In this document: one piece after another, positions 6,358 to 22,029 of the stretch
Layout of the letters: each line of letters opens with the position of its first letter
How positions within the stretch are numbered: the stretch's first letter is position 1
Assembly (NCBI GenBank): GCA_003551945.1
Contig: PUNZ01000143.1
Location: forward strand, 1 to 33,543
DNA from: Halovenus sp.
GTDB lineage: Archaea > Halobacteriota > Halobacteria > Halobacteriales > Haloarculaceae
DNA length: 33,543 bases
Direction: 5' to 3'
Position numbers and translations under genes: made by a program
The notes under the pieces: model-generated
The model's database searches: none
The model's input: the letters and a program-made list of their open reading frames with translations, nothing else
What the model was told of the DNA's origin: nothing

Positions 6358-6439
6358 GCCAGGATGGCCGAACGGTAAGGCGCACGCCTGGAAAGCGTGT
6401 TCCCTTCCGGGATTCTGGGTTCAAATCCCAGTCCTGGCG
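6358..6439 (+). tRNA. tRNA-Ser (anticodon GGA)
   Basis: The full class II cloverleaf can be drawn. The acceptor GCCAGGA (6358-6364) pairs with TCCTGGC (6432-6438), with discriminator G at 6439. The D-arm is GCC/GGC with AACGG in the loop. The anticodon stem CACGC/GCGTG encloses loop CTGGAAA with anticodon GGA. The long variable arm has TCCC/GGGA pairing. The T-arm is CTGGG-TTCAAAT-CCCAG. The long variable arm and G discriminator identify serine, reading UCC and UCU. CCA is not encoded and no intron is present. It lacks G at position 15 only if the D-loop is numbered differently, so archaeosine status cannot be judged by eye. Confidence 0.97.
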
Positions 6440-16726: not shown

Positions 16727-19700
16727 ATGCCTTCTCCACCAATCCAGCTTTCGATACTGTTTCTCGGTTCACCAGCGTGTGCAGCGTCCTCGGAGCCTTG
16801 TTTTGAGACTCTTCCGAGTGGAGCTGTTTCGGCTGAGACAGACGTAGAGTCCGTCATTGATGCGCTCTCGACCGGCCCACAGTGTATTCTGGTTGATGCG
16901 ACTACCGACCCCCGGCATGCTGTCGACTCGGTGCGAAGAATACGGGCGCATACGACAGTTCCCGTGATTGCATTCGTTGGGAAGCAACCTGACGATGTCA
17001 TTGAGAATCTGTTTAACGCAGGTGTGAGCGATATCCTGCAATCAACTCCCTCAGACACGAACCCAACAGTCCTCCAACGGCGAATCGAAACAACGCTCGA
17101 GGCTGATAAACGCGAGACGCTCCAGAGACTTGGACAGTATCGGACACTTGTTGAGGCTTCTGCTGACGCACTGTATCAACTTGATGTAGAGGGGAACTTT
17201 CTTGCTGTGAATGAGGCAACTGCTGACTTGCTTGGAACGTCTCGGTCCCAATTACTCCAATCGAACGTTCGTGAGTTTCTCAACGAAACAGATATCTCGC
17301 GGGCGGAACGAGCGCTTGTGCAACAACTCAAAGATGCAGATACGTCGTTTCACACGCTGGATTTGACCTTTGAGGCTGCGACTGGCGAATCAATACCCTG
17401 CAGTACACGCTTTTCAGCGTTGCAAGTCGACGGCGAGTTTGTCGGTTCGGTCGGCGTTATTCGCAGTGAACGAAAAAAACGTGCTCGTGAACATCGCCTC
17501 CAAGAGCGCGACCAATTATTACGTTATCTCAGTGAGAACCTTAATGCAGTCGTTTGGGTTGCGTACCCCTCTGGTGAGATTGATTTCGTCAGTAGCGCGT
17601 CCCAACAGATTCTCGGCCAACAACCGACACACATCTTCGACAGTGACGAGCCGCTGCTTAAACAGATTCATCCGGAGGATAGAGAACGAATTCGGGAAAC
17701 TCGCCAGCAAAAGCAAACTGCTCCTGACTCATATGACGAAGAGTACCGACTCTTGGGTGAGGATGGAGACATAACATGGGTCCGTGAACAGTGGTTTGAA
17801 GTCCACGAAGAGGAGGCACTCACTCGAATTGTCGGAATTATGCAAGATATTACTGCGATGAAAGAACGAGAACACGAACTTGAGCGCCAACGCGAGTTCG
17901 TTCAACAGACCCATGAGGTCGCCGATGTTGGTGGGTGGGAACTCCTTTTTGCCGACAACACTATCCGCTGGACGGATGAAGTGTACTCGCTTTTGGACTT
18001 ACCTCAGTCATATGAACCGACGTTTCCGGAGATATTTGATCTCTATCACCCTGCGGACAGGGAACTGATTAGGGAGGGGTATCAACGGGCGAAAAACGGC
18101 GAACCGATGGCAGATGGTGAAGTTCGTGTGCAAACCGGAGATGGTGAGATGCGGTGGTTCCAACTGTCCGGTGAGTTCATCATGGAGGATGGTGAGCACG
18201 TCGGCCTCCGTGGCGTGTTTAAAGATATTCACGAACGTAAACAGCGGGAACAAGCGCTCCAAAACGAGCGCGACCTTATCGAGCGCATCCTCGAAACAAG
18301 TCCGATCGGCATCATTGTCTATGACGCAGATGGGACGGTCATCCGAGCGAATAAACAGGCATCGACACTGCTTTCCGTTGACCACGAAACGCTTCTGGGT
18401 GTTGACCCCCATCCTGTTGACCTGACATTATTCTCACCAGAATCGGATACCGGTGACCAGATGGAACTTCCATTTGACCGCATTACACGGACTGAAAAAC
18501 CAGTCTACGATGTGGAAGTCGGTGTGAGACACCCCTCAGGCGAAGAGTTCATCCTCAATGTTGACGGGGTTCCCCTGTTCGATGGTGGTGAGTTAAGCCG
18601 AGTCGTTATTGCTTTTGATGATATTACTGAGCGGGTCAACCGAGAACAGCGGCTTAAAGCCAAGCGAAACGAACTCGCTCAACTTGACCGCCTGAACCAT
18701 CTCATCCGAGATGTCGATAAGGCGCTGCTTGAATCCACTTCACGAAGTGAGATTGAGCGAGCAGTCTGTGATAACCTCTCTTCGTCCGGGCGATATCAGT
18801 ATGTCATGGCGTTCCGACAGACGACAGATGACGAACTTGTTCTCGGTGAGGGCGGGCCGTCCACTGGGGAGTTTCCTGAGGATGTGTTCCCCATCGAGGG
18901 TGCAACGGCCGAAACGTGTCCTGGCTATCGCGCCATTGCAACCGGGAGAACGCAGGTCATACAGAACCTCCAAACATCCGATTCGTCGACCCCGCCAGGC
19001 TTTGAATCGCTTGCAGTTGAGTTAGACCTCGGTTCGATTGCTGCAATTCCGGTGCGTTATGGAGAACGGACATACGGTGCGATTACGGTCTACTCGACGG
19101 ATATTGATGCCTTTGGCGAGCGAGAGATTGAGGTCTTAAGCGAACTCGGTGAGGTCGTAGGATATGCGATTTCAGCGGTCGAAAGCCGCGAACGAGAGGA
19201 AACGCTGACCGCACTTTATGAGGCGACACAGGATTTACTCGCTGCCGAATCGCGGTGGGCTGTCAGTCGCGTGGTGGTGAACACGGCCGCTGACGTTCTC
19301 GGTCCCGCGGGGATTGGCATTTTCCTGTTTGATGATGAAGAGAATACCTTACGGCCGGCAGCAGCCACTGATGCGCTGCATGAGTCCTACGGTGACTTGA
19401 CGAGGTTTGGCCCGGGACACCCCGATTCGGCCATCTGGGATACGTACGTCACTGGTGAGACCAATATGTTCCCGGAGATTCACCACTCAGAGCAGGGTTC
19501 ATACCCGGCAACGGATACGAGACGGAGTTTGGTTGTTCCGCTTGGTGACCATGGTGTGTTTGTCGTTACTGACAACGACCATGGTACATTCGATGAGGAG
19601 ATGCAACGACTCATTGGATTGCTTGCAACAACGACTGAGGCGGCGCTTGACCGAGTTGAAGGGCAAGCAGACCTTGCAGAGCGTGATGAAAAACTCGCTG

Positions 19701-20890
19701 AACGTGGTGCACGAATCGACCGGTTCGAAGAAATGTTCTCGCTGATTGGGGATACAGACCGGCTGCTGCGGCAGGCGGGGACACGGACAGAAATTGAACG
19801 AGGAGTTTGTGAGCGATTCACCGAGACTGACCAGTATCTGTTTGCATGGATTGGTCGAATCACGCCACAACACACCCAGCTTGAACCACAGGCGTGGGAC
19901 GGCCTCAATGATGGCTATTTGGATGCATTGCCGTTCGATAGAACGTGCGAAGAACCCGCAGCCAAAACGGCACGAACTGGAGAGCCAACGGTGGTTCGGA
20001 ACGTGACCGACCACCTCCGAAAGGAGCCATGGGCACGCGAGGCACTTGATCGAGGCTATCAATCGATGCTCGCTGTCCCGCTCGCCTATGGTGATGCAAC
20101 GTACGGCGTCTTGGCGGTCTATGCGGACGAACCCAATGCCTTTGATGATATCGTCGAACCAGTCATCACAACGCTTGGCGAAACAATCGCATACAGCATC
20201 AACGCCATAGAAACACGTCGGGGGATTCTTGCCGACACGGTTGTCGAGCTTGAACTGGCGCTAGAAGGGACTAAAACGTTTCTGAATACTGTTGCGGAGG
20301 TTGCAGATGAAGCAGTTAGTTACCGAGAAATAACGCCGGATACGGATGGTCGTTCACAGGTTCTCTTTGCGGTCTCTCATCCTGTGGTTGACGATATTCT
20401 GGCACTTGAGTCCGAGTTCGTCGCTGTTGAATCGCTCACACACGTTGAAAACGGCGGCGAACATTTATTCCGTGCCGCTATTGCTGAACCAACGGTTGCT
20501 GATACGTTACTTGAGTGTGGTGCAATTCCGAAAGAAGTTACTGCAACTGCAAGGGGCTCTCAGGCACGCGTGCACCTCCCTCGTGAACGTGACGTCCGTG
20601 AGTTTCTTGACCGCGTCCGGGACCGGTATCCCCAGACAACGCTGCAGTCACAGCAGACGATTGATAGCCGTCAGACGGCCGATTCGCTCAATGCGACAGT
20701 AGAAAATGAGTTGACGGACCGACAGCGAGAAGTCTTGCTGACAGCGTTTGAAAGTGGCTATTTCGAGTCCCCGCGGGCAACCTCCGGCGTCGAGCTTTCG
20801 GAGTTACTTGATATCTCGCAACCCACCATGACTCACCATCTCCGCGAGGCACAGCGTCGACTGTTCACCTCGCTATTTGACGAGAAATAG
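16727..20890 (+). CDS. Multi-PAS/GAF sensor with Bat-type C-terminal HTH (transcription regulator)
   Basis: The 1387-residue soluble protein joins many sensor modules to a DNA-binding domain. In order: a receiver-like N-terminal domain (about 6-125, Asp57 in ILVDATTDP, but no acidic pair or late Lys, so probably degenerate); PAS domains at about 135-250, 262-380, 390-505 and 515-637; a coiled linker; GAF domains at about 665-815, 825-985 and 1010-1165; then the Bat-type association domain and an HTH_10 domain at about 1330-1382 (LTDRQREVLLTAFESGYFES and SELLDISQPTMTHHLREAQR). No histidine kinase region is present. This is the Bat (bacterioopsin activator) architecture, where sensing of light, redox or a ligand controls transcription directly. 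The target genes are unknown, and no opsin gene is near. It is a single gene in a large intergenic context. Confidence 0.92.
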   Translation: MPSPPIQLSILFLGSPACAASSEPCFETLPSGAVSAETDVESVIDALSTGPQCILVDATTDPRHAVDSVRRIRAHTTVPVIAFVGKQPDDVIENLFNAGVSDILQSTPSDTNPTVLQRRIETTLEADKRETLQRLGQYRTLVEASADALYQLDVEGNFLAVNEATADLLGTSRSQLLQSNVREFLNETDISRAERALVQQLKDADTSFHTLDLTFEAATGESIPCSTRFSALQVDGEFVGSVGVIRSERKKRAREHRLQERDQLLRYLSENLNAVVWVAYPSGEIDFVSSASQQILGQQPTHIFDSDEPLLKQIHPEDRERIRETRQQKQTAPDSYDEEYRLLGEDGDITWVREQWFEVHEEEALTRIVGIMQDITAMKEREHELERQREFVQQTHEVADVGGWELLFADNTIRWTDEVYSLLDLPQSYEPTFPEIFDLYHPADRELIREGYQRAKNGEPMADGEVRVQTGDGEMRWFQLSGEFIMEDGEHVGLRGVFKDIHERKQREQALQNERDLIERILETSPIGIIVYDADGTVIRANKQASTLLSVDHETLLGVDPHPVDLTLFSPESDTGDQMELPFDRITRTEKPVYDVEVGVRHPSGEEFILNVDGVPLFDGGELSRVVIAFDDITERVNREQRLKAKRNELAQLDRLNHLIRDVDKALLESTSRSEIERAVCDNLSSSGRYQYVMAFRQTTDDELVLGEGGPSTGEFPEDVFPIEGATAETCPGYRAIATGRTQVIQNLQTSDSSTPPGFESLAVELDLGSIAAIPVRYGERTYGAITVYSTDIDAFGEREIEVLSELGEVVGYAISAVESREREETLTALYEATQDLLAAESRWAVSRVVVNTAADVLGPAGIGIFLFDDEENTLRPAAATDALHESYGDLTRFGPGHPDSAIWDTYVTGETNMFPEIHHSEQGSYPATDTRRSLVVPLGDHGVFVVTDNDHGTFDEEMQRLIGLLATTTEAALDRVEGQADLAERDEKLAERGARIDRFEEMFSLIGDTDRLLRQAGTRTEIERGVCERFTETDQYLFAWIGRITPQHTQLEPQAWDGLNDGYLDALPFDRTCEEPAAKTARTGEPTVVRNVTDHLRKEPWAREALDRGYQSMLAVPLAYGDATYGVLAVYADEPNAFDDIVEPVITTLGETIAYSINAIETRRGILADTVVELELALEGTKTFLNTVAEVADEAVSYREITPDTDGRSQVLFAVSHPVVDDILALESEFVAVESLTHVENGGEHLFRAAIAEPTVADTLLECGAIPKEVTATARGSQARVHLPRERDVREFLDRVRDRYPQTTLQSQQTIDSRQTADSLNATVENELTDRQREVLLTAFESGYFESPRATSGVELSELLDISQPTMTHHLREAQRRLFTSLFDEK

Positions 20891-21213
20891 CGTTGATGGT
20901 AGAGCGTGGGATTCGTCCATTCGTGTGACCAGTGTATCGATAGAATTGGTACTTGTACACAAATCCGGAGTGATTTATGATCTCCCTACCTGTTTCCATC
21001 TTTTATATTAACACCTTCAATAAATAATGTCATTGGTTGTGGATGTCTACAATTATTATCGGTGTCTGTTGGGGCTGTGCTGGGGCCAGTAGACAAATGC
21101 CCGTGCTACGTCTGCCACTTTTTGACGAACATCTAGATATTTAGCCCCCTTTGCCGGACTAGTTTTGTATGTTAGTAGTCATCTGTATGTGTAAACAGTT
21201 CTACTACTATAAT
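20891..21213. other. AT-rich gap downstream of the sensor gene
   Basis: No protein-like frame or RNA was recognised here. A TATA-like TTTTATATTAACACC near 21001-21015 is followed by an ATG at 21027 that opens only 21 codons (starting MSLVVDVYNYYRC), which I do not call. CTAGATATTTAG near 21132-21143 and ACTATAATG at 21206-21214 are further TATA-like runs; the latter is correctly placed to start transcription just before the structured island. Confidence 0.45.
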
Positions 21214-21233
21214 GACGGTCATATTGGACCGTC
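21214..21233. promoter_or_regulatory. Perfect inverted repeat at a TATA-like box
   Basis: GACGGTC (21214-21220) and GACCGTC (21227-21233) are perfect inverted copies around ATATTG. The element lies directly before the structured island and directly after ACTATAATG. A protein bound here would control transcription into the island. Confidence 0.4.
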
Positions 21234-21399
21234 TCTCCCACTAGTTGTGTGGGGCTCTGTCAGAGGCACACTGACTCCAGCGGGAGGCGGCATGTGACCG
21301 CGCTTGGACACCGCGGTTTGCTGCGTCCCGCTGGAGTTACGCCGTCACCGCCTCTTGCTCCCGAGGCCAGGACGGCTCTTGCCCCACGCGTCTCTCCCA
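21230..21399. repeat. 11-bp direct repeats flanking the structured island
   Basis: CGTCTCTCCCA occurs at 21230-21240 and again at 21389-21399. The 148 bases between hold the whole folded island. Such a pair could be a target-site duplication left by a small non-autonomous element, or a coincidence of pyrimidine-rich sequence. Confidence 0.5.
21241..21395 (+). ncRNA. Candidate structured RNA or MITE-like element of unknown class
   Basis: A GC-rich block inside an AT-rich gap folds by eye into nested helices. The outer helix is GTGTGGGGC (21247-21255) with GCCCCACGC (21381-21389), one G-U pair. Helix 2 is GTCAG (21259-21263) with CTGAC (21271-21275). Helix 3 is ACTCCAGCGGGA (21274-21285) with TCCCGCTGGAGT (21326-21337), a perfect 12-bp stem capped by ACCGCG/CGCGGT (21297-21302 / 21312-21317). 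Helix 4 is GCCGTC/GACGGC (21341-21346 / 21371-21376) capped by GCCTC/GAGGC (21350-21354 / 21363-21367). It shows no tRNA, SRP, RNase P or known guide-RNA signature. The strand is a guess from the TATA-like ACTATAATG at 21206-21214. A mobile-element remnant is the main alternative. Confidence 0.45.
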
Positions 21400-21480
21400 A
21401 CACCAGACAGTGAGTCTCTGGTCCCCACTCCGTTCTGGCATTATTCCTGAGACTTTAGTTACTTCCGTCCAAGAGTGCGT

Positions 21481-22029
21481 ATGGAACCGTGGCGAACGAT
21501 TTCACAGGAACGTGCCTATTCGTGTGGTGGTTTCGATATCATCAACGAGACCGTTGAACTCCCTGATGGCAACGAGGCTCCATTCGATTATCTTTCGGAA
21601 ACTGAAAGCGTCATCATTCTCCCGTTTACAACTGACGGCGATGTGGTTACTATCCGTGAGTGGCGACACGCAGTCAGACGGGTAAACCTCGGTCTTCCGG
21701 CTGGCTCTCTCGAACCGGAAGAGGAGCCACGTGAGGCGGTCAGTCGGGAACTGCTCGAAGAGACTGGCTATCAAGCGGGTGAGATCGCTCATCTCAGCAC
21801 TGTTGAACCCTCGAACGGGTTTTCCGATGCTATTTTTCATTACTTTGTTGTCTGGGACTGTCACCCGGCCGGCGAGCAGAACCTTGACTCGGATGAGACA
21901 ATCGAGCCAGTCCTTTCATCGTTCGACGAACTCAGCGAGGCCGTCCGAGCAGGCGAGTTCCGTGATGGGAGGTCTGCGTTTGCCATTGCACAGTATTTGC
22001 TTCAGTATCCTGCTGACCCACATCTCTGA
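21481..22029 (+). CDS. NUDIX hydrolase, ADP-ribose pyrophosphatase-like
   Basis: The ATG at 21481 ([13 protein letters not shown]) gives 182 residues; a GTG two codons earlier is less likely. The NUDIX box fits G-x5-E-x7-RELLEE-x-G exactly, from Gly75 to Tyr97 ([20 protein letters not shown] then TGY). It is preceded by a beta strand [21 protein letters not shown], whose REWR and LGLPAG match the ADP-ribose/nucleoside-diphosphate-sugar hydrolases. Such enzymes split ADP-ribose and similar compounds to remove toxic metabolites. Substrate class is inferred from the REWRH...LPAG pattern, not proven. A TATA-like GACTTTAGTTA about 30 bases upstream gives it its own promoter, downstream of the structured island. 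It is followed by tgtA after 47 bases, possibly co-transcribed. Confidence 0.88.

Follow-up and report, generated by a model that had tools for sequence, protein, structure and literature searches.

Among the small RNAs described in Archaea, sRNA162 of Methanosarcina mazei is an intergenic RNA of 191 nt, located beside a transcription-regulator gene and composed of three stem-loops and an unstructured single-stranded linker, which pairs with an mRNA and masks a ribosome binding site; its homologues are found in close relatives only (PMC3510493). In haloarchaea, sRNA132 of Haloferax volcanii, reported only in the genus Haloferax and conserved there in its location, acts on a phosphate transporter operon via the 3'-UTR (PMC6560208), and halite metatranscriptomes have revealed conserved haloarchaeal intergenic sRNAs to which no function has been assigned (PMC7002113).

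The locus described here lies in the window, namely the whole stretch of 33,543 nucleotides of Halovenus sp. DNA that was analysed, and is most likely a stand-alone structured non-coding RNA gene of haloarchaea, previously uncatalogued and with homologues in at least 16 species. Comparison of these homologues delimits a predicted RNA gene on the + strand, from ~21212 to ~21400-21430, with its own promoter at 21132-21188 (Table 1); the predicted transcript would most likely be roughly 190 bases long. A sequence-only reading of the same DNA had singled out positions 21230-21399 as a GC-rich folded island and had left two alternatives for it, a structured non-coding RNA or a MITE-like insertion with an 11-bp target duplication. 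The first is borne out by the 16 homologues, the conserved upstream region and compensatory changes, while the second is contradicted by the single copy and by synteny. The island itself stands, but its limits were drawn too narrowly: the feature is larger and also takes in a 5' hairpin that begins at ~21212 and, ahead of it, conserved upstream sequence that begins at 21132.

Table 1. Features of the predicted RNA gene and of the adjoining genes, with their positions in the window.
Feature	Position	Strand	Description and basis
bat-like regulator	16727-20890	+	1387 aa (PAS, GAF, BAT, HTH_10 domains); immediately upstream of the RNA in 14 of 16 genomes
Block A, TCTAGATATTTAGCCCC	21132-21148	+	Nearly invariant; begins 40 nt before the TTAG of block B; alignment A3, spacing
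Block B, TTTGTATGTTAGTAGTCATCTGTAT	21164-21188	+	Holds invariant TTAG (21172-21175) and TAT (21186-21188), the presumed TATA element; alignment A3, spacing
Start motif ATGACGG (family RTGRCGG)	21212-21218	+	Predicted 5' end of the RNA, +/- a few nt, from the fixed distance to block B
P1, 5' hairpin GACGGTC/GACCGTC	21214-21233	+	Folding, G012 comparison, duplex test
C-rich motif, copy 1, CGTCTCTCCCA	21230-21240	+	Upstream copy of the 11-bp repeat; for the most part unpaired
P2 closing helix, 5' strand GTGTGGGGC	21246-21254	+	Centroid fold, G012 comparison
Core CTGTCAGAGGCAC	21257-21269	+	Homologue comparison
H3, long hairpin straight after the core	21272-21339	+	Includes the 12-bp perfect stem 21274-21285/21326-21337; folding, similar in most homologues
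H3 tip ACCGCG-[CTTGGACAC]-CGCGGT	21297-21317	+	Loop CNTGGACAC common to G029, G170 and G236; stem covaries
H4 hairpin	21341-21376	+	8-nt C-rich loop TTGCTCCC (21355-21362); folding; counterpart with C-rich loop in G005, G008 and G013
P2 closing helix, 3' strand GCCCCACGC	21381-21389	+	Centroid fold, G012 comparison
C-rich motif, copy 2, CGTCTCTCCCA	21389-21399	+	Second copy of the repeat; predicted 3' end of the RNA near or past here
NUDIX-domain gene	21475-22029	+	Downstream of the RNA in G000 and G012 only

In the window, the region 21200-21420 was folded against 200 dinucleotide shuffles, and its + strand reached a minimum free energy of -107.1 kcal/mol, compared with -76.9 +/- 4.5 kcal/mol for the shuffled sequences (z -6.72; 0/200 as good), far better than shuffles; folding of the - strand was weaker (z -4.85). 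The helices and the repeat that had been read from the letters are present at the positions given for them, among them the 12-bp perfect stem, the outer closing helix (nine pairs, one of them G-U), which in the fold of the window encloses the core, H3 and H4, a further capped stem (H4), an inverted repeat at the entry (21214-21220/21227-21233) and an identical 11-mer on either side of the island. Taken by itself, the pair of 11-mers is weak evidence: when the window was shuffled 100 times, 15 shuffles gave at least two matches with up to one mismatch. Within the RNA family the 11-mer belongs to the C-rich motifs and occurs here in two copies.

The closest relative carrying the island is Halobacteriaceae archaeon Tc-Br11_E2g27 (record LKNH01000016.1; G012, the window's own genome being G000). 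There the island sits at the corresponding site, with the bat-like gene on one side and the NUDIX gene on the other, and shows 90% identity over 219 bases with both copies of the 11-mer kept, whereas the neighbouring coding DNA of the two genomes is only ~79-83% identical. An RNA structure model built from these two closest sequences (R1) gave no convincing match beyond them, either in 148 genomes of the family or in 394 genomes of the order, the weak matches in G028 and G229 being at chance level. When the query was extended upstream, the 60 bp before the RNA matched in six more genomes of the genus, in five of which the 13-mer (C/T)TGTCAGAGGCAC follows, the sixth carrying the variant CAGAGGTGCAC. 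A sequence model of the upstream region (R2) then picked up a single locus per genome in additional genomes, two other genera among them, and a pattern search for the upstream TTAG plus the core added one homologue in another family (G236); the architecture was absent from G200, G245, G344 and the other extra matches of the pattern search that were inspected. The resulting set comprises 16 genomes of four genera and two families, namely 13 of the own genus (G000 and G012 included) plus G029, G170 and G236, with one locus each where searched. No R2 match was found in five incomplete genomes of the genus, and a model from all 16 upstream regions revealed no further convincing genome among the 394 of the order. 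Outside cellular genomes, plasmids gave no match, two short matches in phages were due to chance, and in viral contigs the H3-tip motif was not matched, while five matches to block A fell in AT-rich contigs without the core.

The homologues share a common architecture: a rigid upstream region (TCTAGATATTTAG, TTAG, TAT and RTGRCGG, ~80 nt), a 5' hairpin, the core, a GC-rich hairpin after the core and C/U-rich unpaired stretches, which recur behind the core in most homologues. The core GTCAGAGGCAC is exact in 14 of the 16 genomes and reads CAGAGGTGCAC in G005 and G008. In the alignment of the upstream region of the 16 genomes (A3), spacing is almost fixed: TTAG and TAT are 14 nt apart and TAT and the start motif 26 nt apart in most genomes, and block A lies 80 nt from the start motif (range 77-81). 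An archaeal TATA element is expected ~26 nt ahead of the start. As the TAT-to-start-motif distance has this very value, the conserved TAT is the presumed TATA element of the RNA, and we infer that the RNA starts at ~21212. The TATA-like ACTATAATG to which the sequence-only reading had assigned this role overlaps the predicted transcript start and is conserved only in the closest relative, being absent from the other species. A trans-acting sRNA is expected to be a stand-alone gene with its own promoter, in a position independent of its target gene, and the upstream blocks at fixed spacing, together with a different locus in two species (see below), agree with this description.

Since the group alignments are rough, with many predicted pairs breaking in one member, weight was put on the comparison of G000 with G012, on a test for stems behind the core and on covariation in the H3 tip. 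Between G000 and G012, one helix pair is changed on both sides and two are changed on one side yet still paired, while a single pair present in the fold of the window (columns 53/104 of alignment A1) is lost in G012. In the stem of the H3 tip, three of the six pairs show changes on both sides, with a covariation score of 0.433 that was equalled in 1 of 500 shuffles, a value obtained from few sequences related to one another; slid registers scored 0-0.1 in five of six cases, and the slide by +3, which leaves three pairs, also scored 0.433. The apical loop CNUGGACAC of this hairpin is shared by G000, G012, G029, G170 and G236. Covariation between homologues is seen in the helices compared with G012 and in the H3-tip stem. 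In 10 of the 16 genomes a stem that begins no more than 18 nt behind the core is stronger than in shuffles (individual p < 0.04; combined p ~4e-11, uncorrected for relatedness), and no clear long hairpin lies right behind the core in G001, G002 and G004. For P1 the same stem test gave a combined p of ~5e-5, and most homologues allow a hairpin to be drawn there. Folding of the whole RNA exceeds shuffles with z < -3 only in G000, G012, G005, G008 and G015, the other 11 of 16 homologues being not clearly different from shuffled sequences.

These features make it probable, in our judgement, that the locus is a stand-alone non-coding RNA gene with its own promoter, whose product acts in trans as a regulatory RNA pairing through C-rich single strands. 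Such an RNA would consist of the 5' hairpin, the almost invariant core (CUGUCAGAGGCAC), the long hairpin behind it, a further hairpin and C/U-rich unpaired stretches; as a trans-acting regulator it would use its C-rich single strands (CUCUCCCA, twice here, and the loop UUGCUCCC) to pair with G-rich mRNA sites, for example UGGGAGAG, near start codons, and this pairing would hinder or promote translation. The invariant core may hold a protein or a tertiary contact, and the 11-bp repeat would represent two copies of the pairing motif rather than a target-site duplication. A search of G000 and G012 for TGGGAGAGAC, which is complementary to the C-rich motif, revealed no clear enrichment (12 non-self sites vs 5 for the control in G000, 6 vs 4 in G012), and two complement sites, one in each genome, fall at possible start codons and are to be taken as leads only. 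In G012, the start of a small HTH-type gene (AUGGGAGAGACGGUC; L185, contig C17, ~15875) is complementary over ~20 nt, with one bulge, to the 3' arm of P1 and the C-rich motif, making this gene a possible candidate target. In G000, a sequence complementary to the C-rich motif (AUGGGAGAGAC) overlaps the start codon of an open frame of ~500 codons starting with MGETVTEKIL (L184, C21:7280), which is likewise a possible candidate. An 18-nt match on contig C85 of G000 lies in sense orientation relative to its gene and is not a target.

The same C/U-rich single strands could alternatively serve to bind a protein, and the strongest competing explanation, which we regard as somewhat unlikely, is that the RNA works through a bound protein, as a scaffold or sponge and with no mRNA pairing. 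An RNA- or DNA-binding protein, which may be the adjacent bat-like regulator, would then recognise the invariant core hairpin and the C/U-rich strands. In 14 of 16 genomes the core does not differ by a single base, whereas the stems have been rewritten, and such a short invariant motif suits protein recognition; a bat-like gene adjoins the RNA in the same number of genomes. Against this explanation, G003 and G015 have no bat-like gene next to the RNA, and the adjacency elsewhere may be mere synteny. More tentatively still, the invariant 12-13-nt core and the unusually rigid multi-block promoter might denote a haloarchaeal RNA family of a new functional class, in which stems and C-rich strands evolve too fast for sequence search to reach beyond near relatives. 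Its members would be regulatory RNAs or form a core ribonucleoprotein, and might serve a bat-type light/oxygen sensor as its post-transcriptional arm.

It is very improbable that the locus is an untranscribed element acting only at the DNA level, such as an operator, or a barrier to transcription lying behind bat. Conservation is indeed strongest in the AT-rich upstream blocks, the core is short and most homologues fold no better than shuffles, but the compensatory stem changes and the conserved loop, the stem at a fixed place behind the core and the TATA-to-start spacing all point to an RNA, as does the stronger folding of the + strand than of the - strand in G000, G005, G008 and G015.

The gene neighbourhood also bears on the independence of the predicted RNA gene. 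Several genomes of the genus display the order folD, bat, RNA, glyA, with glyA pointing toward the RNA; in the other species with bat-folD synteny it is glyA, on the opposite strand, that lies downstream instead of the NUDIX gene. The bat-like regulator is only ~45-55% identical among members of the genus, yet its position beside the RNA is kept. In G003 (L118) and G015 (L116) the RNA, with promoter and core kept, is found at another locus, before a redoxin-like gene and with no bat-like gene adjoining, which indicates that the gene is independent and is not a cis-acting part of bat, of glyA or of the NUDIX gene. That the locus is a riboswitch or other cis-regulatory leader of the NUDIX gene behind it might be imagined from the shared strand, the ~80 nt that separate the end of the island from the NUDIX start and the identical order in G012; we consider it very improbable, because the downstream gene varies among species (glyA, often on the opposite strand, or the redoxin-like gene), whereas a riboswitch would always precede the same gene family, in its 5' leader. 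Furthermore, at 21453-21461 of the window, ~20-27 nt before the NUDIX start, the sequence TTTAGTTA / CTTTAGTTA is conserved in G012; this suggests that the NUDIX gene has its own promoter and that its mRNA may be leaderless.

The palindromic GC-rich island with a direct repeat on either side had pointed to a MITE, a non-autonomous small transposon that would have duplicated 11 bp of its target, but this reading can be set aside as extremely improbable: the island is present in one copy in its own genome, RNA-model and DNA searches of the 148 family genomes gave no scattered copies but only the syntenic one of G012, the conserved upstream region of the homologues lies outside the island, the C-rich motif falls within the transcript model, and the G012 island, at the same site, 90% identical and with both repeats and changed helices, excludes a recent insertion. 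The direct repeat expected of a target duplication is there, with both copies kept in the syntenic G012, and no empty site was found. Another GC-rich folded island before a NUDIX gene (L033, G009:C281; z -5.4) resembled a diverged homologue and proved to be unrelated, being a multi-copy mosaic repeat with relatives in 120 of the 148 family genomes; it is likely a real MITE or IS-derived repeat.

The locus does not fall into a catalogued class, in line with the earlier statement that no known class was recognised: neither the window region nor the 15 homologous loci matched Rfam 15, which includes archaeal SRP RNA, RNase P RNA, tRNA, guide RNAs and riboswitches. At the gathering threshold only a tRNA at 6358-6439 was found in the whole window, and with E up to 5 the region 20900-21600 yielded only mir-1304 (E 2.9; 16.7 bits vs a cut-off of 90); eight of the loci were also without match at E up to 1. 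Inspection by eye noticed neither a kink-turn with an ACA box nor C and D boxes of an H/ACA or C/D guide RNA, and no reading frame across the core is common to the homologues.

To our knowledge, comparison across genera has been used to characterise few archaeal small RNAs, and sRNA132 and sRNA162 are each confined to a genus; the predicted RNA described here is recognisable across four genera through its promoter and core even though its body has been rewritten. Their conservation offers a search handle (TCTAGATATTTAG, TTAG, TAT, RTGRCGG and GTCAGAGGCAC) for a family that is missed by ordinary BLAST and by Rfam, and the locus provides a concrete gene for testing RNA-based regulation in haloarchaea. 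When set beside the known systems, it shares with the conserved intergenic sRNAs of halite, compared by description only, its conservation, its structure and its occurrence in Halobacteria (PMC7002113). Like sRNA132, it would be a haloarchaeal intergenic sRNA with a conserved location, but, on a comparison by description, it spans four genera and two families. In design, sRNA162 comes nearest, for its size, its regulator neighbour and its combination of stem-loops with a single strand; it belongs, however, to another archaeal class, whereas the sequence common to the present family is the invariant core and the promoter, its single strands are C/U-rich and its targets are only candidates.
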